Below the pieces are notes generated by a model. It was not told the DNA's origin. It was given only the letters and a program-made list of their open reading frames with translations, and ran no database searches. 64,000 nucleotides of DNA, taken from contig JAQXJR010000001.1 in NCBI GenBank assembly GCA_029009055.1, forward strand, positions 80,712 to 144,711. The letters run 5' to 3'. Position numbers and translations under genes: made by a program. Source of the DNA: Eubacteriales bacterium. Lineage in GTDB: Bacteria; Bacillota; Clostridia; Peptostreptococcales; Anaerovoracaceae. Below, piece after piece: positions 9,990 through 50,093 of this stretch; positions within the stretch are counted from its first letter, which is position 1, and every line of letters begins with the position of its first letter.

Positions 9990-10009
9990 CAATTTTACAC
10001 GAAGCGAGA

Positions 10010-10762
10010 TCAAGACCTGAGCTTCTCGCGTATGCCCAGCATCTTCATGTCCGTCTGAGCTATGGTCTCAGCGCAGTCCTTCAGGTCCTCCGCGATCTCA
10101 GCCGCCTTATCTTCCGGTATATCCTTCTTATAGCGCATCCTGTGCTCTAAGGACGCCCAGAAATCCATAGCGACAGTCCTGATCTGGATCTCCACCCTCA
10201 TAGGTCTCTTCTCGTCTGAGAAGAATACCGGTACCTCGACTATCATATGGTAACTCCTGTATCCGTTCTCCTTAGGGTGCTTTATGTAATCCTTCACCTC
10301 TATTAACGTTATGTCGTCCTGTTGGACCAGCATCCTCGCGACCTTATAGATATCATCTATGAAAGAGCAGATGACCCTGACGCCCGCTACGTCGTTCAGG
10401 TTAGCCTCTATGGATTCCAGGGATATAGGGTCTCCCTGTCTTACAAGCTTCTTATAAATGCTCTCCGGGGATTTAAGCCTGGATTTAATGCTGTTTATAG
10501 GATTGCTGTCGTGAGAAGCCAGGGACAGCTCATCGTTCAGAACTTCAAGCTTCGTCCGGATCTCCTTAATAGCCGACTCGTACCTCATCATGAGGATCTT
10601 AAAATCATCGGCGCTGTCCTCTATGTGACGGATGACTTCCGGGTCGCTCCTGTCTATGTATTCCGGCAGCTCGTGTCTATCCACTTCTCTTCGCATCTCA
10701 GCCATTAAGGCTTCCGCGCCGTATCCCGTTACACTTCCCGCATTCTCAGAATCATAATTCAT
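10010..10762 (-). CDS. Small alarmone (ppGpp) synthetase, RelA/SpoT synthetase domain
   Basis: 250 aa; DPISLESIEANLNDVAGVRVICSFIDDIYKVARML, KENGYRSYHMIVEVPV, VEIQIRTVAMDFWASLEHRMRYKK. Confidence 0.92.
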   Translation of the reverse strand: MNYDSENAGSVTGYGAEALMAEMRREVDRHELPEYIDRSDPEVIRHIEDSADDFKILMMRYESAIKEIRTKLEVLNDELSLASHDSNPINSIKSRLKSPESIYKKLVRQGDPISLESIEANLNDVAGVRVICSFIDDIYKVARMLVQQDDITLIEVKDYIKHPKENGYRSYHMIVEVPVFFSDEKRPMRVEIQIRTVAMDFWASLEHRMRYKKDIPEDKAAEIAEDLKDCAETIAQTDMKMLGIREKLRS

Positions 10763-11015
10763 TTCTAAAATGCCCTCCTGTAGCTGTAACTATCTTACAC
10801 CACCCGCGCCTATTATAGGTGTATACTTCACGCGATATTCCGAATATGCCGCGCCCTCGGTCTGCCTCATGCCTAAGGTAAGCGTTTAAGCCCTGAATAA
10901 TGGCGGTAACTCCCTTTATTTTCCTCCAGCAAAGCAGTACCGCTTGTTTTCCCCGAACATCGGCTGTAGATTCATCCTGCCGAGCGGACCCGCGGCTTAG
11001 TGAAAGGAGGAAACC

Positions 11016-11171
11016 ATGAACGCCAGATGTTCTATTTGTGGAAAAGCAGAGGATGTATTCGCCTTTAAGAAAGGCTTCATATGCAGGCGCTGCCTGGATG
11101 ATATTAAGGGGCATGACCATAAAACCGTTGAAAACAGGCGGCTTTCAGATCATCTCACACACTGCTCCTAA
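11016..11171 (+). CDS. 51-aa zinc-ribbon-like small protein
   Basis: Below the track cutoff. MNARCSICGKAEDVFAFKKGFICRRCLDDIKGHDHKTVENRRLSDHLTHCS; two CxxC knuckles; AAAGGAGG RBS. Confidence 0.7.
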   Translation: MNARCSICGKAEDVFAFKKGFICRRCLDDIKGHDHKTVENRRLSDHLTHCS

Positions 11172-11225
11172 ATATCGTCAGGTTGTCGTAGACCAAGCCG
11201 GGTCTTAAGGCCGCAACCTATCCAC

Positions 11226-12158
11226 CTACCTGACCTGGCCGCTCCTGAGTTTCTCCAGGATCTCCCGGAACTTCTCAGGCGGGTCCGCGCGGAATTCCAT
11301 ATATTCACCCGTGACAGGGTGAACGAAGCCCAGGACAGCCGCGTGGAGCATCTGACCGTTAAGGCCGAACGGCTGGTCTTTAGACCCATATACAGTGTCG
11401 CCCAGCAGGGGGTGTTTCCTGTAAGCCATGTGCACGCGGATCTGGTGAGTCCTGCCTGTTTCCAGCCTGCATTCTATCAATGTGAATTTACCGAAGCGTT
11501 CCAGGACGCGGTAATGAGTCACGGCCCGCTTGGCGCCTATCCCGTTTACGGCTCTTCTCAGCCTGTTGTTCGGGTCGCGCCCTATAGGAACATCTATGAC
11601 ACCCTCGTCTTCTTTGATATTATCTCTAACTATAGCCAGATACCTTCTGGTTATAGAATGCTCGAAAAGCTGCCTGGACAGGCTGACATGAGCGTTATCG
11701 TTCTTTGCTATCATAAGAAGACCGCTCGTATCCTTATCTATCCTGTGGACTATGCCCGGGCGAACCACACCGTTTATAGAAGACAGCCTATCGCCGCAAT
11801 GGTACATTATAGCATTTACCAATGTGCCGGTGAGATTCCCGACTGCCGGGTGGACCACCATGCCAGCGGGCTTGTTCACTACCAGGACATCATCATCCTC
11901 ATAAACTATGTCCAGAGGGATGTTTTCCGGCTCCACGTCTAAAGTTTCCGGCTCAGGAACATCTATCCTGACCAGGTCGCCTTCCTTAGCCTTAAGCTTC
12001 CTCGAAGAGCAGGGAGCGCCATTCACAGTCACCGCCCCGTCCTCGAACAGCTTCTGTATCCTGGACCTGGATACGCTGTCATCTGTCTTAGAAGCTATGA
12101 CCTTATCGAGCCTGTCGCCCGCGTCTTCAGCTGAAATTATGAATGATAAAGTATCTAT
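11226..12158 (-). CDS. RluA/RluD family 23S rRNA pseudouridine synthase
   Basis: S4 domain then GIVHRIDKDTSGLLMIAKN and GRTHQIRVHM. No ATG/GTG/TTG/CTG between the lspA stop and the conserved N-terminus; ATA at 12158 sits 7 nt after GGAGG. Confidence 0.9.
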   Translation of the reverse strand: MDTLSFIISAEDAGDRLDKVIASKTDDSVSRSRIQKLFEDGAVTVNGAPCSSRKLKAKEGDLVRIDVPEPETLDVEPENIPLDIVYEDDDVLVVNKPAGMVVHPAVGNLTGTLVNAIMYHCGDRLSSINGVVRPGIVHRIDKDTSGLLMIAKNDNAHVSLSRQLFEHSITRRYLAIVRDNIKEDEGVIDVPIGRDPNNRLRRAVNGIGAKRAVTHYRVLERFGKFTLIECRLETGRTHQIRVHMAYRKHPLLGDTVYGSKDQPFGLNGQMLHAAVLGFVHPVTGEYMEFRADPPEKFREILEKLRSGQVR

Positions 12159-41883: not shown

Positions 41884-43014
41884 CTATTCCCCCATTTTAT
41901 TCATTAAAGTGTTGGCAACCTGTTCTATGTTCATGGAAGTAGTGTCTACCTCCACAGCATCCTCAGCTTTACGCAGCGGATTGAGCTCGCGGTGCGTATC
42001 TCTGTAATCGCGTTCCTCTATGTCCTCCAGTATCTCGTCGTAATTTACATCTTCACCCTTAGCCTTAAGCTCGTCGAACCGCCTCTTAGCGCGCTCTTCC
42101 GGGGAAGCCGTCAGGAAGAATTTATATTTCGCGTCCTTAAATACGTTCGTGCCTATGTCGCGGCCGTCCATGACGACGCTCTTCTTCATGCCGATATTTC
42201 TCTGCATGTCCACGAGCTTGGTCCTTACGGCAGAAAGGCTCGCCACCTTAGAAGCCATGGCTGATACTTCCTGGGTCCTGATCTTAGAGCTTACGTCTAC
42301 GCCGTCCAGCATGACGACTCCGTTATCGAAATCTATGTCTGTTCCGTCCAGCATGCTCTTCATAGCTTGATCATCAGACGGGTCTATGCCGTAGATCATG
42401 GCCTTATATCCTACAGACCTGTACATTGCGCCCGTGTCTATATAATCTATGCCTAATTTCTTAGCGACCAGTTTAGCTATGGTGCTCTTACCGGCTCCGC
42501 CAGGTCCGTCTATGGCTATCTGGTATACATCCTCACGGCTGCAAGCCTCGTCAGGCCTCTCATCCCTCGCCTGCAGCTTAGCCACTTCTCTGGCGAAATT
42601 ATCGGCATCGTTGAATCTGAGATAGACGGACGCGAATCTGATGTAAGCTACCTGGTCTATGGTCTTAAGCTCTTCCATTACCATTTCGCCTACGAGGCCG
42701 CTCTTAACTTCCTTCTCCATCAGGTTATTAAGCTTCCTCTCTATGCGCTCTACCATAGAATCTATAGCGTCCATAGAGACAGGCCTCTTCTCGCACGCTC
42801 TGACTATGCCGCTCTTAAGCTTAGCCCTGTCGAAAGCTTCCCGTCTTCCGTCTCTCTTAATGATCATGACCACAGGCTCTTCCACCTTCTCATAAGTCGT
42901 GAACCTGCGGCGGCAGTTCTCGCACTCGCGTCTCCTGCGTATCTCGTAACCATCCTCAGTCGGCCTAGAATCTATAACTTTCGTGTCTTCGTGATCGCAA
43001 TAAGGACACTTCAT
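41884..43014 (-). CDS. Fusion protein: NrdR transcriptional repressor + cytidylate kinase (Cmk)
   Basis: One ORF: MKCPYCDHEDTKVIDSRPTEDGYEIRRRRECENCRRRFTTYEKVE + ATP-cone, then VYQIAIDGPGGAGKSTIAKLVAKKLGIDYIDTGAMYRSVGYKA to the end of Cmk. AGAGGAG RBS at the NrdR ATG. Confidence 0.93.
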   Translation of the reverse strand: MKCPYCDHEDTKVIDSRPTEDGYEIRRRRECENCRRRFTTYEKVEEPVVMIIKRDGRREAFDRAKLKSGIVRACEKRPVSMDAIDSMVERIERKLNNLMEKEVKSGLVGEMVMEELKTIDQVAYIRFASVYLRFNDADNFAREVAKLQARDERPDEACSREDVYQIAIDGPGGAGKSTIAKLVAKKLGIDYIDTGAMYRSVGYKAMIYGIDPSDDQAMKSMLDGTDIDFDNGVVMLDGVDVSSKIRTQEVSAMASKVASLSAVRTKLVDMQRNIGMKKSVVMDGRDIGTNVFKDAKYKFFLTASPEERAKRRFDELKAKGEDVNYDEILEDIEERDYRDTHRELNPLRKAEDAVEVDTTSMNIEQVANTLMNKMGE

Positions 43015-43235
43015 CGTATTCTCCTCTGCTTTAATAGAATCTGCCGGCGCTTCTATAACCTGACATGTGTCTAAAGTTTTCCGGCGCCTGCTCATACTTT
43101 TCGAATTTACCTTATTCTACCATAAATAATCAGTATGGGCCGCAAAATCTGATATTTTATCGAAAGCCATAAGCTTAGTCCCAGGGCGATGGAGTCGAAA
43201 CTGACGGTAAGGCTTTGCCGCGGGCAAAAAATGAA

Positions 43236-43276
43236 CAAGGAGAGGCGCCCGGCCAAACCTGCCGGGGACCTCTCCC
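43236..43276 (-). terminator. Inverted repeat/terminator candidate
   Basis: GGAGAGGcgCCCGGCcaaacctGCCGGGgACCTCTCC. Confidence 0.6.
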
Positions 43277-43358
43277 TGAACTTCGACTATGTATGATACA
43301 CAGTCCCATGTAACACTGCTATATAGATTTTACTTACATACCATATTATTAGCCATAA

Positions 43359-44558
43359 TTAGCCAACGAACGGCGCCAGGACGAACTTAAAGATGATAGT
43401 CGTTAGAGCAGCGAAGTACTGTACGGATACGCAAGCCGCGTATCTGGAGAAGAACTTGCTCTTTCCAGTCATCCAATGAAGCGCTGCAGGAGCGATGAAG
43501 GCGAAGATGATTCCTACCGGGATCAGTACTTCGAGCTTTGGGCAGTACGCTACGAGAGCCAGGATACATAATGTGCTCTCGAATGTGAAAGCGTATCCCT
43601 TTTCCTGATATCTCGGTCCCCAGATGATCATGCCGACTGCTGTTACGAAGAAGATCATGAAGATAGCCTTCGGGAGCAGGAGTCCGAACAGACCGCCGTT
43701 AGGATTGAAGATCCAGGATACGATAGCTCCGAGGATGTAACCGAAGCCAGCCCAGCTAGAACCCCAGAACCAGAGTTCAGCCATATCAGCGAATGATCTC
43801 GTTACTACGAGGTGGCCAGCGCCGCCCAGTACGTCAGCGTGTGGATCAGCTTCTACCGCAGGAGCCGGATCATCAGGATCTTCCATCATCCAAGGAAGTC
43901 TCTTAAAGATCTCCATGAAGATCCATGTGCATGTAGGCATTGCGATACCGAAAGCAGCGAATGTAGGGATACCGAGAGGTATCATTACATGGTTCATCAG
44001 CATCTGAGAGCCCCATACAGGGAAGAAGATGGATGGAATAAGACCTGTTAAGAATTTCTTGATATTAGGCTTTCCGAAGTTCAGGATAGCCACAGGGAAT
44101 ACGGATACGAGCGGAGTGAAAGTCGTGATCCATCCTGTCCATCCAACGATATGTCTCCAGAAGATGTTAGCCAGGAACATAGCGAGGAACTGGCCGCATA
44201 CCAGCCATACCCATTTATCCTCGAATGCTTCTCCGGCAACTCCTGTTCCCTTAAGAGGTGAATTTGTCTTCTCCAGGAAATAGCCGATCCATCCACCGAT
44301 AAGCATGAATAAGCAGCTTACTGTATCAGTGAGGAATGAACCTTCACCAGAATCAGAGAATGAATAAATGATATCCCATACTGAGAATGCCTTATCGGCG
44401 CCGCCAGTCTGATTTCCGATCATGGTGAAAAGGTTTGCCTGTGTTATCTCGTTAAGTTTTACGAGTCCAGGAGCTATCTGCTCCATCATCCACATTACCA
44501 ACCACGCTATAAAAATAACTGCCAGGGCTGGTACTATAAATTTCTTTCTTTTTTCCAT
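43359..44558 (-). CDS. Multi-pass integral membrane protein, putative transporter of unassigned family
   Basis: 399 aa with many hydrophobic segments; no family motif recognised by eye. Confidence 0.7.
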   Translation of the reverse strand: MEKRKKFIVPALAVIFIAWLVMWMMEQIAPGLVKLNEITQANLFTMIGNQTGGADKAFSVWDIIYSFSDSGEGSFLTDTVSCLFMLIGGWIGYFLEKTNSPLKGTGVAGEAFEDKWVWLVCGQFLAMFLANIFWRHIVGWTGWITTFTPLVSVFPVAILNFGKPNIKKFLTGLIPSIFFPVWGSQMLMNHVMIPLGIPTFAAFGIAMPTCTWIFMEIFKRLPWMMEDPDDPAPAVEADPHADVLGGAGHLVVTRSFADMAELWFWGSSWAGFGYILGAIVSWIFNPNGGLFGLLLPKAIFMIFFVTAVGMIIWGPRYQEKGYAFTFESTLCILALVAYCPKLEVLIPVGIIFAFIAPAALHWMTGKSKFFSRYAACVSVQYFAALTTIIFKFVLAPFVG

Positions 44559-44673
44559 TTTAAAACCCTTTTAGATAATCATTAACATCACAACAACAAA
44601 ATTATTCGTTTAGATCGCAAGTAATGATAGCAGTGTGATTCTTCCGGTAACGTATAATGAAGTCATACATGTA

Positions 44674-45330
44674 TCACACGGGCTTAAATGGATTCACAGC
44701 CTCAGACTTATCATAGTACACGACGTCATCCCCGATAAGGTGGCTGACGCCATCCCGCACGTCTATGATCTGTACGGCGCAGTTATCAGGTACTCCTCCA
44801 TGCCAGAAATCTGTCGTATCTTTATAGACAGACTGCATGAGACACCTCATAGCGAAGCCATGGGTCGAAAGCAGAATGGTAGAATCTTTCAAGTCCTCAC
44901 GATGTATGAGCTCGTTATAGAATTCTCCGGTCCTTTCGACCACGTCTCTGATACTCTCCCCATCTTCAGCGGGAACGAAATCATATGGATCTGTATAAAA
45001 TTTATTAAAGTTCTCTTTATTAGGAATATTGAAATTCGCCGGAGACAGGCTCAGGCATTCCCATTCTCCCCAATACATCTCCTTCAGTCGATCTTCTGTT
45101 TCAATGACAGGACTTTCAGCATCATTATATTTCAGAATGATCTCTGCCGTTTCATAAGCCCTCTTCAGCGGGCTGGAGATGACTTTATCGAATTTTATAT
45201 CAGCCATCTTCTTCGCGGTTATCTGCGCGAGTTTTCTGCCTTTACTGTTAAGCGGAATGTCCACCCAACCGTCGACTATCCCACTTATATTCGCGTTAGT
45301 TTCGCCATGTCTTATTATGTATATCTTCAT
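44674..45330 (-). CDS. Histidine phosphatase family protein
   Basis: MKIYIIRHGETNANISGIVDGWVDIPLNSKG (RHGET), EDGESIRDVVERTGEF, LLSTHGFAMRCL. Confidence 0.93.
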   Translation of the reverse strand: MKIYIIRHGETNANISGIVDGWVDIPLNSKGRKLAQITAKKMADIKFDKVISSPLKRAYETAEIILKYNDAESPVIETEDRLKEMYWGEWECLSLSPANFNIPNKENFNKFYTDPYDFVPAEDGESIRDVVERTGEFYNELIHREDLKDSTILLSTHGFAMRCLMQSVYKDTTDFWHGGVPDNCAVQIIDVRDGVSHLIGDDVVYYDKSEAVNPFKPV

Positions 45331-45476
45331 ACTAATTACCACTTATTACGTAGAGCAGTAATTTTATTTTCAATTTGCAAAGGGAACCATAGAGCAACTA
45401 ATTTCTAATCACCTATGATTCCCTTTAACGCATCAGATACTAATATCTGACAAAACCACTGATGATAAAGCTATGA

Positions 45477-46418
45477 TTAGTGATTCTTCCAGAACTTCTT
45501 ACCAGTAAGAAGACCGAGCCAGTAATCATATCTAGGATCGTTCCACAGGTGCTGCAGTCTAGCAACCTTAGGTCCATACCACTGCATGAAGTCGTTATCA
45601 ACATCAGAGAACAGATACTGCTGCAGTGACCAGTAAGCCCACTTAATATCTGTAGCGATCTTAAAGAGCTTGATCCTAGCGAAGAGTTTCTCATCGAACT
45701 CACCGTAGTTATAGATCTTAGTCATCTCTACATCCATAGCCTCTGGGAAGAAGTTAACTGTTGAGTAGAGTCCGAGGTCGCAAGCAGGGTCGTTCATGGA
45801 AGCATACTCGAAGTCGATGAGCTTAAGGTCATCCTTCTCCTCGTTATACATCATGTTGTTCGTCCAGAAATCGTTATGGCATGGTGCTAAAGGAGCGCCG
45901 ACCTTATCCATAGCTTCCTCGATCTGATCCATCATAGTGAGCATTCTCTCATGCCATGCTGGCAGATAATCTCCCTTTAAAGCTCTTTCTACCATGTCTC
46001 TGTTCTGATCGAAAATAGACTGCTCGAGAGGGATCTTAGTATCTGTCACATGATGGAACTCTCTGATAGCTTCGATAGATCTCTTAAAAATCTTATAATC
46101 GTAAACGTCTCCGAATGTTACCTGACGGTATCCATCCAGCCACTTAACGATCTCAACACCCGTGTCAGGATAGTAGTAGCAAGCTTCTGGTCCGGACTTA
46201 GACTCGGACGCTATAACGTTAGCAGCGTGGCAAGCGTCACGGTCGATGAAGTCTGTTCCAGCTCCCGGAACCTTCAGGAAGAAATTCTCTCCATCTACAG
46301 TTACCTTAAAGTTAGGGTTAGTGATTCCTCCTGCGATAGGCTTATAGGATACGTCCTTACCCTTCCAATCTTCTACTCTAGCGACAGCTTCTTCAACAGT
46401 AGTAGGTTTAACAGCCAT
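45477..46418 (-). CDS. Choline kinase/APH-family phosphotransferase
   Basis: AGGITNPNFKVTVDGENFFLKVPG, LAPCHNDFWTNNMMYNEEKDDLKLIDFEYASMNDPACDLG. Confidence 0.88.
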   Translation of the reverse strand: MAVKPTTVEEAVARVEDWKGKDVSYKPIAGGITNPNFKVTVDGENFFLKVPGAGTDFIDRDACHAANVIASESKSGPEACYYYPDTGVEIVKWLDGYRQVTFGDVYDYKIFKRSIEAIREFHHVTDTKIPLEQSIFDQNRDMVERALKGDYLPAWHERMLTMMDQIEEAMDKVGAPLAPCHNDFWTNNMMYNEEKDDLKLIDFEYASMNDPACDLGLYSTVNFFPEAMDVEMTKIYNYGEFDEKLFARIKLFKIATDIKWAYWSLQQYLFSDVDNDFMQWYGPKVARLQHLWNDPRYDYWLGLLTGKKFWKNH

Positions 46419-46579
46419 TTCAAAACCTCCGTTATTATTCTGAAATAAACAGACTTTTCATCCTGCCTCCTGCCTGGAGGCAGGATAGAATAACAATAAA
46501 AAGTTGATCAATATGTATAGAGCTGCAAACTCATATGGCTGATACGATTCAGCCATTTATCTCATAATGATTGATAAGC

Positions 46580-47827
46580 TTACGCGAATACGCTGATATC
46601 GATTCCATAAACCTTAGCGAGCATAGCTACATAGCCTTCGTAAGTCTTATTCATCTCTGTGATGCTTACGTGCTCCTTAGCCTGGTGTGCCTGTGGCTCT
46701 TCACCGCCGGAATATCCGATAGTAGGGATTCCGTGCTCAGCCTGTGTGCATCCACCGTCTGTACCGAACAGCCAGTACTTAACAGCAGGATCCTGTCCCA
46801 GGTCATGCAGAGCTTCCAGTGACTTAACTACGTATGGATCGTCCTTACCTGTATCCCAAGCTGGATGAGCCTTCTTAACGTCTGTCGTGTAGCCCGTGTA
46901 TGAAGTCTCTGTGTAAACTCTAGGCTCTACTGTAGCCTTAAACTCAGGAATCTCCTTCTTAATCTCAGCGAACATGTCTTCGAACTCCTTAACGAGCTCG
47001 TCGATAGTCTGGGATGTAGCGTATCTTCTATCAACAGAGATCTCGCAGATATCTGGGATAACGCTGAGGTTTCCACCAGGAGAAGCTGTGATATTAGTAA
47101 CTGTGATGTTAGAAACTCCTGTCTTCTCGTCTGTTACGAGGTTGATTCCTTCATGCTTGAACAGTCTGTCGAGTACTGGGACCATGAGCTGGATAGCGTT
47201 GATTCCCTGCTCAGGAGCTGATGAATGAGCTACCTTACCATATGTTCTAACTACGAGCTCTACCTTACCTCTCTGTCCTACGACTACGTCGTTGGAAGAA
47301 GGCTCACCGAGGTAAACCAGGTCCACCTTAATGTTGTGCTCTGGAACTGTATGATTGAAGAAGTACTCCATACCGAACATCTCAGCAGGCTCTTCCTGAA
47401 CTACTCCTAAGAAGTACAGATCTCCAGGGAGCTTATTTCCCTTATCGATGTACTCTTCCTTAATAGTCTTCATAGCCATGCACTGTGCTGAGAGTCCGCC
47501 CTTCATGTCGCAGATTCCACGTCCATAGAGCAGGTCGCCTTCTACTGTCGGTGTGTAAGGCTCATATGGCTTCCAAGCGTCCAGGCTTCCTTCATGAACA
47601 GCGTCCATATGTCCGTTAAGAAGAATGTTAGGTCCCTTACCTTCTCCCGGGATCTTAGCTACTACATTTCCAGCGCCGTCACGGAATACATCGATTCCCA
47701 GACCTTCGAAGAAGTCGATCAGGAAATCAGCCATAGGCTTCTCTTCACATGTCAGTGTCTTTAAGGAAATGACCTTCTTCATGAATTCAAGATAATCATT
47801 CTTACGTTCTTCTACAGTTTTTAACAT
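46580..47827 (-). CDS. M20 family metallo-hydrolase (YgeY/ArgE/DapE-like)
   Basis: ILLNGHMDAVHEGSLDAW, LLYGRGICDMKGGLSAQCMAM, VVQEEPAE. Confidence 0.9.
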   Translation of the reverse strand: MLKTVEERKNDYLEFMKKVISLKTLTCEEKPMADFLIDFFEGLGIDVFRDGAGNVVAKIPGEGKGPNILLNGHMDAVHEGSLDAWKPYEPYTPTVEGDLLYGRGICDMKGGLSAQCMAMKTIKEEYIDKGNKLPGDLYFLGVVQEEPAEMFGMEYFFNHTVPEHNIKVDLVYLGEPSSNDVVVGQRGKVELVVRTYGKVAHSSAPEQGINAIQLMVPVLDRLFKHEGINLVTDEKTGVSNITVTNITASPGGNLSVIPDICEISVDRRYATSQTIDELVKEFEDMFAEIKKEIPEFKATVEPRVYTETSYTGYTTDVKKAHPAWDTGKDDPYVVKSLEALHDLGQDPAVKYWLFGTDGGCTQAEHGIPTIGYSGGEEPQAHQAKEHVSITEMNKTYEGYVAMLAKVYGIDISVFA

Positions 47828-47947
47828 TACACTATCTCTTTTCTTATTAAGTTCGCTCCGAACTGTTTAGAGCTTTTCATATGTAATAAACTGACATATA
47901 TTCATTTCAGCATGTAAAAAGCCATGAAAAAGAACTATAATGACCCA

Positions 47948-48907
47948 CTACTTAGCGAGTGTTTCAATATAGCTATCCCACTTTTCTTCCTTCATATACT
48001 GGAGACCGAGCTGCGCTCTGTCGTTACCATAATCCCAGTAAACAGCAGGATCCTTACCGTTAGCCATCTGAACCAGTGACCAGATCGACCAGTACTCGCA
48101 GTAAACGAATCTGTCTACCATTACACGAGCGACCTGTTCCTCTGTAGGTTCACCGAAGTAAGCCTTAAGCAGAACATCTGTCATCTCATCAGTAAGAAGG
48201 TCCTCTGTGATTATTCCGGCAACATCAGAGTAAATATCGCCAACGCCGCCATATTCCCAATCGATCAGGGTCATATCATTTCCGTCCCACATCCAGTTCT
48301 CAGCTAATGTGTCGGCATGGATAGGCCCGATGATCGGTGGATTCTTCTTATTTATTTCATCGATCTTAAGAACAGTATCATAGATCTCGTCCCAACCTTC
48401 GAAACGCTCCTCATATTTCTTATCTTCGAGGATCTTCGCGTAATCCTTAATTCCCTGGACATGATCCATCGTTCCCTGGAACTTCATTCCGCAGTTGTGG
48501 AGTCTCTTCAGCACGCCTGCTGCCGCCTCTACGACTGCCTTATCATTCTGGAAGTCTTCCAGATGCATAGTCGGCTTCTCCACGAAATTCGTAACTTCAC
48601 ATCCGGATCTGGTATCGAAGTAATAAACCTCAGGCGCTATCCCTAACATGGAAGCGGCGATGCAGTTATGCTTCTCACCTGCTCTATTGATGTATTCACC
48701 AGTTCCGGCGCCGCCCATACGGAGCACTACCTTATGTCCGTCAGCGAGCGTAACCTTGAAGCTCTTATTCGTCAGTCCACCCTGCAGAACTTCGATATCC
48801 TGAGTCTTCTCTCCTAAGATCTTCTCTGTTAAGTCAACGAGTTCCATGAATTTAGAAATCTCATCAGCTCTCAGGATGGACCAGAAATTCTTCTTGTCGT
48901 CAGCCAT
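47948..48907 (-). CDS. Choline kinase/APH-family phosphotransferase, second copy
   Basis: VLQGGLTNKSFKVTLADGHKVVLRMGGAGTGEYINRAGEKHN, GPIHADTLAENWMWDGNDMTLIDWEYGGVGDIYSDVAG. Confidence 0.88.
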   Translation of the reverse strand: MADDKKNFWSILRADEISKFMELVDLTEKILGEKTQDIEVLQGGLTNKSFKVTLADGHKVVLRMGGAGTGEYINRAGEKHNCIAASMLGIAPEVYYFDTRSGCEVTNFVEKPTMHLEDFQNDKAVVEAAAGVLKRLHNCGMKFQGTMDHVQGIKDYAKILEDKKYEERFEGWDEIYDTVLKIDEINKKNPPIIGPIHADTLAENWMWDGNDMTLIDWEYGGVGDIYSDVAGIITEDLLTDEMTDVLLKAYFGEPTEEQVARVMVDRFVYCEYWSIWSLVQMANGKDPAVYWDYGNDRAQLGLQYMKEEKWDSYIETLAK

Positions 48908-49412
48908 ACTCTTCACTCTTCTCCTTTCATTGCCATAGCCTTTCAAGCATCTGAAACATGCTGAGCCGTAGGCAAATAAAAATAATAAATGTTTAATGCT
49001 GAAGTGAATATAAAATGATACTTCGCATGCTCATACAAAGCATCAAATAGTAAACCTATTATTTAACCATTATTATTAGCTACATTTACTATATTAAAAG
49101 CAAGGCAACATCAACCGATCCTACATGGTACCGCTGTTATTCGAACGATTTATAGATAGTCCGCTCTTAATACATCTCTTCCGGATGCATCTCATGTTTC
49201 TATTTTAGTACTTTAAAATTTAATATCAATATTTATTGGTTATTTTTAGTGTTAAATTTATTCTATGCATTTGTAAAAAACGTGTAATTCCCATAAATTA
49301 TTGACTAAAATCGTCAATATTTTGAAATATCTGAACATTCGACTCGGCGTGATATACGTCTACGCGTCCCCACGAAAGCGGACGCTACATGCCGATATTT
49401 CTTTGCAAATGA

Positions 49413-50093
<681 letters not shown>

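Follow-up and report, generated by a model that had tools for sequence, protein, structure and literature searches.

The described systems closest to the gene cluster reported here are the Eut systems, whose ethanolamine ammonia-lyase (EutBC) is the likely downstream enzyme of the cluster, and the pathways in which a kinase of the APH family, its presumed substrate being an amino alcohol, is combined with a phospho-lyase of the class III PLP enzymes (Veiga-da-Cunha 2012, as cited in PMC8154272). The predicted Aut microcompartment (PMC6620236) is of this second type, and for the hydrolase of the cluster the closest named M20 group is the YgeY family. The cluster has no EutH, shell or EutBC genes, the last of which define an Eut operon, and its hydrolase, kinases and phosphatase, which would act before ethanolamine is reached, are additions to what the Eut systems contain. 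It also differs from the kinase/phospho-lyase pathways: an amide hydrolase is absent from them, and the host of the cluster lacks the phospho-lyase.

The window, which is the whole stretch of 64,000 nucleotides that was analysed, contains five consecutive minus-strand genes that are all present, intact and in the order first described, according to the ORF list and Pfam (Table 1). The original prediction assigned them to two choline-kinase-like phosphotransferases, an M20 hydrolase, a histidine phosphatase and a membrane protein; Pfam confirms the four enzymes, and the transporter-like gene indeed stands outside the named families, since neither the protein nor its profile matches anything in Pfam, NCBIfam or PDB sequences. 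The gaps between the genes, given before as roughly 60-160 bp, are in fact 115, 146, 161 and 120 bp. The preferred start of kinA is the ATG at 48907, which has AAAGGAG upstream (a TTG at 48946 is the alternative), and that of the phosphatase is the ATG at 45330. The terminator-like hairpin lies 3' of the membrane gene and closes the cluster, but two internal hairpins, one between M20 and kinB and one between kinB and the phosphatase gene, mean that a single transcript for the five genes, though likely, is not assured. These two internal hairpins may be processing or stability elements. Rfam gave no riboswitch at the gathering score within the window, none in the upstream region of the cluster, and no hit of any kind at the cluster itself.

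Table 1. Genes and transcript signals of the cluster and its flank, in window coordinates.
Feature	Position	Strand	Evidence
kinA, choline/ethanolamine-kinase-like phosphotransferase, 319 aa	47948..48907	-	Pfam Choline_kinase 3e-16
M20-family metallohydrolase (YgeY/DapE-ArgE branch, below the YgeY cut-off), 415 aa	46580..47827	-	Pfam Peptidase_M20 and M20_dimer
kinB, second choline/ethanolamine-kinase-like phosphotransferase, 313 aa	45477..46418	-	Pfam Choline_kinase 1e-24
Histidine phosphatase (branch 1), 218 aa	44674..45330	-	Pfam His_Phos_1 1e-43
Membrane protein, 399 aa, putative transporter, unnamed family	43359..44558	-	about 11 hydrophobic segments
Serine recombinase (resolvase family), divergent, in the inserted block	49461..50093	+	Pfam Resolvase 5e-30
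Intrinsic-terminator-like hairpin with T-rich tail, block end	43235..43278 (approximate)	-	-34.8 kcal/mol, z -5.8
Strong hairpin in the kinB-phosphatase gap, without clear T run	45375..45427 (approximate)	-	z -5.0 for the gap
Strong hairpin CCTGCCTCC...GGAGGCAGG in the M20-kinB gap, without T run	46458..46488 (approximate)	-	z -4.3 for the gap

Each enzyme itself comes from a known family, and its catalytic residues, read directly from the sequence, are intact. kinA and kinB belong to PF01633 (Choline_kinase), with 60.0 and 87.7 bits against a curated cut-off of 29, and keep the motifs HxDxxxxN and IDWEY/IDFEY; their best NCBIfam match, the guanitoxin kinase GntI (NF041256), gives 101.8 and 127.1 bits and falls short of the cut-off of 357. 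The M20 enzyme combines Peptidase_M20 and M20_dimer domains (Pfam, 1e-24), retains the metal ligands H/D/EE/E/H and scores 287.2 bits against the YgeY selenium-linked hydrolase model (NF009555), below its cut-off of 321. The phosphatase has RHGE and the distal H, and its best NCBIfam match is the CobC alpha-ribazole phosphatase (TIGR03162), at 110.3 bits with a cut-off of 162.9.

We read the cluster, with a probability of roughly one half, as a horizontally acquired module that breaks down an amino alcohol bound in an amide or ureide, N-acyl or N-carbamoyl ethanolamine being the most likely kind of substrate. Import of the small amide would fall to the membrane protein with its duplicated 5+5-helix plan, and kinB would phosphorylate the hydroxyl of the amide, so that the compound is retained in the cell. 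The M20 enzyme would then split the amide or carbamoyl bond, yielding phosphoethanolamine (or ethanolamine) and the acyl part, and the histidine phosphatase would free ethanolamine, which the ammonia-lyases of the host could convert to acetaldehyde and ammonia; kinA may be able to phosphorylate the free amino alcohol. In this scheme we infer the substrate, the direction of transport, the order of phosphorylation and hydrolysis, and the roles of kinA and the phosphatase. Two EutBC sets occur in the genome. One belongs to a full eut microcompartment operon, which shares a contig with the cluster at a distance of 67 kb; the other, an EutB-EutC pair outside that operon, is accompanied by an EutVW-like sensor/regulator on another contig (locus L178, contig C35, 4037-9111).

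When 84,980 species genomes were scanned for kinB homologues, five close ones (57-61%, L093-L097) and 75 proteobacterial loci (31-36%) were found. An orthologous M20 gene adjoins kinB in four of the five; these M20s are 46-48% identical to that of the window and form one clade with it (98/98), apart from the YgeY-like M20 of relatives, and the corresponding kinBs likewise group with that of the window (100/100). One locus from Lachnospiraceae (L095) reads kinB-M20-eutA-eutB-eutC, with EutB and EutC above their NCBIfam cut-offs, EutA just under, and no phosphatase gene nearby. A second, from Lachnospira of the same family (L094), comprises a phospho-lyase-type enzyme, an ABC transporter, Amt, kinB, M20 and DeoR; the first of these is a class III PLP enzyme, encoded upstream, whose best PDB match is the ethanolamine-phosphate phospho-lyase 6tor (1e-103). 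In the two termite-gut Spirochaetaceae (L096, L097) the order is M20-membrane family-kinB. L096 carries two tandem kinB genes (9992-10939 and 11015-11871), so that the module there again has two kinases. The genes that recur together in Firmicutes and Spirochaetes are kinB, M20 and the membrane family only. kinA was not found beside the kinB-M20 pairs elsewhere; like the histidine phosphatase, it is a local addition outside the conserved core. Judged from sequence, the adjacency of kinB and M20, recurrent in Lachnospiraceae and Spirochaetaceae and with a kinase/M20-superfamily pairing in Proteobacteria, is more than chance, and kinB is a core gene of a conserved module. The conservation of gene neighbourhood raised by the original prediction is accordingly borne out for kinB-M20 (four loci) and the membrane family (two), but not for kinA and the histidine phosphatase. 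A search of relatives with the M20 enzyme alone had returned general YgeY/DapE-like genes.

A parallel exists in an ABC-DeoR-Zn hydrolase-two kinases-(HisN-type phosphatase)-(EutBC) operon of Proteobacteria, for example on Agrobacterium pAt and Shinella pShin-03, whose kinB is 35-36% identical to that of the window. The operon is distributed in Rhizobiales, Pseudomonas and Methylobacterium, its existing annotation is limited to 'choline kinase', 'Zn-dependent hydrolase' and 'histidinol-phosphatase', and we found no functional description of it in the searchable papers. A carbamoylase of the M20 superfamily and a second kinase stand beside the kinB homologue at 73 of the 75 loci, DeoR at 69, a HisN-type phosphatase at 39 and EutB/C at 16. 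The HisN-type phosphatase is present at all 16 loci with EutB/C and at 23 of the 59 others (Fisher 5e-6, relatedness not corrected). Thus a kinase and a phosphatase side by side, thought unusual in the original prediction, are not an unusual pairing. The predicted route of import, phosphorylation, hydrolysis and dephosphorylation fits, and the parallel operon has like parts; the substrate and step order of the route are the conjectural portion. Like this operon, the window holds an M20-superfamily amide/ureide hydrolase beside two choline-kinase-family enzymes, one of the kinB subfamily, together with a phosphatase and a transporter. The differences are nevertheless substantial: an unnamed membrane family replaces the ABC transporter; the proteobacterial hydrolase belongs to the hydantoinase/carbamoylase (TIGR01879) branch, a different M20 subfamily with no significant BLAST similarity to that of the window; and the proteobacterial phosphatase is IMPase-type, of another superfamily than the histidine phosphatase. 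kinB and both proteobacterial module kinases form one clade (support 100/98), and kinA is not an orthologue of the second of them. Clear homology between the Firmicute and proteobacterial versions is confined to the kinases, and the match is in composition and not in descent. In five proteobacterial kinBs (L085, L086, L109, L122 and L123), M or F replaces the His of the HxD loop (CMND/CFND), D and N being kept; the second module kinase keeps this His where the reading is complete, and the two kinases may work as a pair. More tentatively, and with some doubt, we consider that there may be an undescribed multi-phylum pathway for amide- or ureide-linked amino alcohols, with import by the transporter family that Pfam and NCBIfam lack, phosphorylation, M20 cleavage of phosphorylated amides, and dephosphorylation or a phospho-lyase step feeding ethanolamine metabolism.

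Ethanolamine ammonia-lyase requires unphosphorylated ethanolamine. We prefer the order phosphorylation, cleavage, dephosphorylation because the phosphatase accompanies EutBC and because a phospho-lyase-type gene occurs in the Lachnospira locus, where EutBC is absent. Several observations count against our main reading. Of the five genomes that carry a close kinB (MAGs, their completeness unstated), only one has EutB; the host genome yielded no orthologue of the phospho-lyase; neither an M20 nor a transporter gene adjoins the close kinB of L093; and between the Firmicute and proteobacterial versions the hydrolases differ in M20 subfamily and the phosphatases in superfamily. The main difficulty for the preferred order is L095, where kinB and EutABC occur without a nearby phosphatase gene, and this keeps alive a second, rather unlikely reading in which the acyl half is the substrate of the kinases. 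Here the M20 enzyme would split an amide of ethanolamine and a hydroxy acid (or a ureido polyol), the hydroxy acid would be phosphorylated and enter sugar-acid metabolism, and ethanolamine would pass directly to the ammonia-lyase, as the direct coupling of kinB-M20 to EutABC in L095 would suggest. DeoR regulators, which usually sense phosphorylated sugars, accompany the module, and the presence of two kinases also agrees with this second reading. Against this stand the membership of both kinases in the choline/ethanolamine kinase family, the position of kinA near eut-linked kinases, and the phospho-lyase-type gene of L094, which points to phosphoethanolamine.

In the kinase tree, kinA sits on a long branch and groups with eut-operon-linked, Lic-type and FAD-oxidoreductase-linked kinases. 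Its grouping with the Lic-type kinases, which occur in relatives, lends something to the idea of a Lic-like role for both kinases of the cluster, the production of phosphoethanolamine or phosphocholine for surface or lipid head groups, with the M20 enzyme and the transporter supplying the amino alcohol. We consider such salvage improbable, given that neither the surroundings of the cluster nor the genes seen next to the kinB-M20 pairs include a cytidylyltransferase or a LicB/LicD-type gene, and that the links to ammonia-lyase and phospho-lyase are catabolic. A neighbourhood search of relatives with the kinases alone gave Lic and eut-linked kinases and not the present cluster. Kinases resembling kinA lie near FAD-dependent oxidoreductase genes at three loci (L087, L088 and L089; Roseobacteraceae and Shinella plasmids), two of which have a DeoR regulator, and may represent a further uncharacterised amino-alcohol pathway.

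The membrane protein has about 1+5+5 hydrophobic segments, and an hhalign comparison of the two halves (99.9%, E 1e-30, 153 columns) shows that they are homologous, which indicates an internal duplication; a plan of duplicated halves is common among secondary transporters. AlphaFold2, run from an alignment of three rows only, gave a mean pLDDT of 42. The family is rare: among 395 genomes drawn from the order 7 have it, and among 399 drawn from the phylum 6 do, the present genome being counted each time. No match was found in 16 other genomes of the genus, and neither the search of genome contigs with the membrane protein alone nor the viral contig search gave a relative. At 15 other loci the family adjoins genes for amide or ureide hydrolases, of hydantoinase-like/M20, formamidase, amidase, nitrilase, asparaginase and Ntn amide hydrolase kinds. 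It is found with a PucR regulator, a hydantoinase-like amidohydrolase and an M20 at four loci (L009, L010, L080 and L081), with a formamidase pair at L082, with an Ntn-type amide hydrolase at L083, with a YtcJ-like amidohydrolase at L012, with a ureide/5-oxoproline-like set at L011, with an amidase, nitrilase or asparaginase at L013, L014 and L090-L092 (Rhodococcus, Prescottella, Paenarthrobacter and Phyllobacterium plasmids), and with an M20 in the two spirochaetes. Some of these neighbours owe their names to inspection of the translations; Pfam served to check genes of L080, L082 and L083, and plasmid names follow the records. This company suggests a putative transporter of small amides or ureides, whose substrate and direction we infer. 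In the tree, the membrane protein of the window lies on another branch than those of the spirochaetes, so that the family probably joined the kinB-M20 pair twice; the window protein is long-branched and this is not certain.

The five genes and the serine recombinase gene make up a block of about 7.8 kb (about 43.1-50.9 kb) that separates tig from nrdR-cmk. The block is absent from all seven sister species readable across the region, where tig adjoins nrdR(-cmk) with gaps below 0.5 kb, which indicates a species-specific insertion; no serine recombinase gene was found between tig and nrdR in these seven. The G+C content of the cluster (0.44-0.48, against 0.48-0.56 for most neighbours) is a mild sign of transfer and weak evidence, and its codon usage showed nothing distinctive. 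The lone recombinase may have carried the block in. Next to the insertion, a single ORF of 403 aa (41884-43095, minus strand) encodes NrdR fused to cytidylate kinase; matches spanning both occur in several species of the genus, and in others the two are adjacent separate genes.

An insertion with a recombinase gene, kinases of the APH superfamily and GntI as best NCBIfam relative, though far below its cut-off, might also describe a detoxification or self-protection cassette, in which an antibiotic or toxin of amide type is inactivated by the kinases and the amidohydrolase and exported by the membrane protein. This is very improbable in view of the link between the kinB-M20 pair and EutABC and of the nutrient-type operons with PucR regulators in which homologues of the membrane protein occur. 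M20 enzymes include formylaminopyrimidine deformylase, and weak NCBIfam similarity to ThiK and CobC would allow salvage of the thiamin pyrimidine or of the cobalamin lower ligand by an M20 deformylase with thiamine-kinase-like and CobC-like enzymes, but we give this scarcely any weight, as all scores are below cut-off, no riboswitch was found in the window at the gathering score or in the upstream region, and the neighbours elsewhere are eut genes.

The cluster matches no described system that we found, as the original prediction had supposed. For the gene combination, the ethanolamine link and the transporter family, and for the operon, no description was found in the searchable literature, outside which most subscription journals lie. 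The kinB-M20-EutABC locus makes the question of the substrate directly testable. If our reading is true, the membrane family now annotated as 'hypothetical protein' would have a predicted role in amide or ureide uptake, the proteobacterial kinase/hydrolase operon would gain a function in place of its generic annotation, and gut and plant-associated bacteria would possess an unrecognised feeder step into ethanolamine metabolism.
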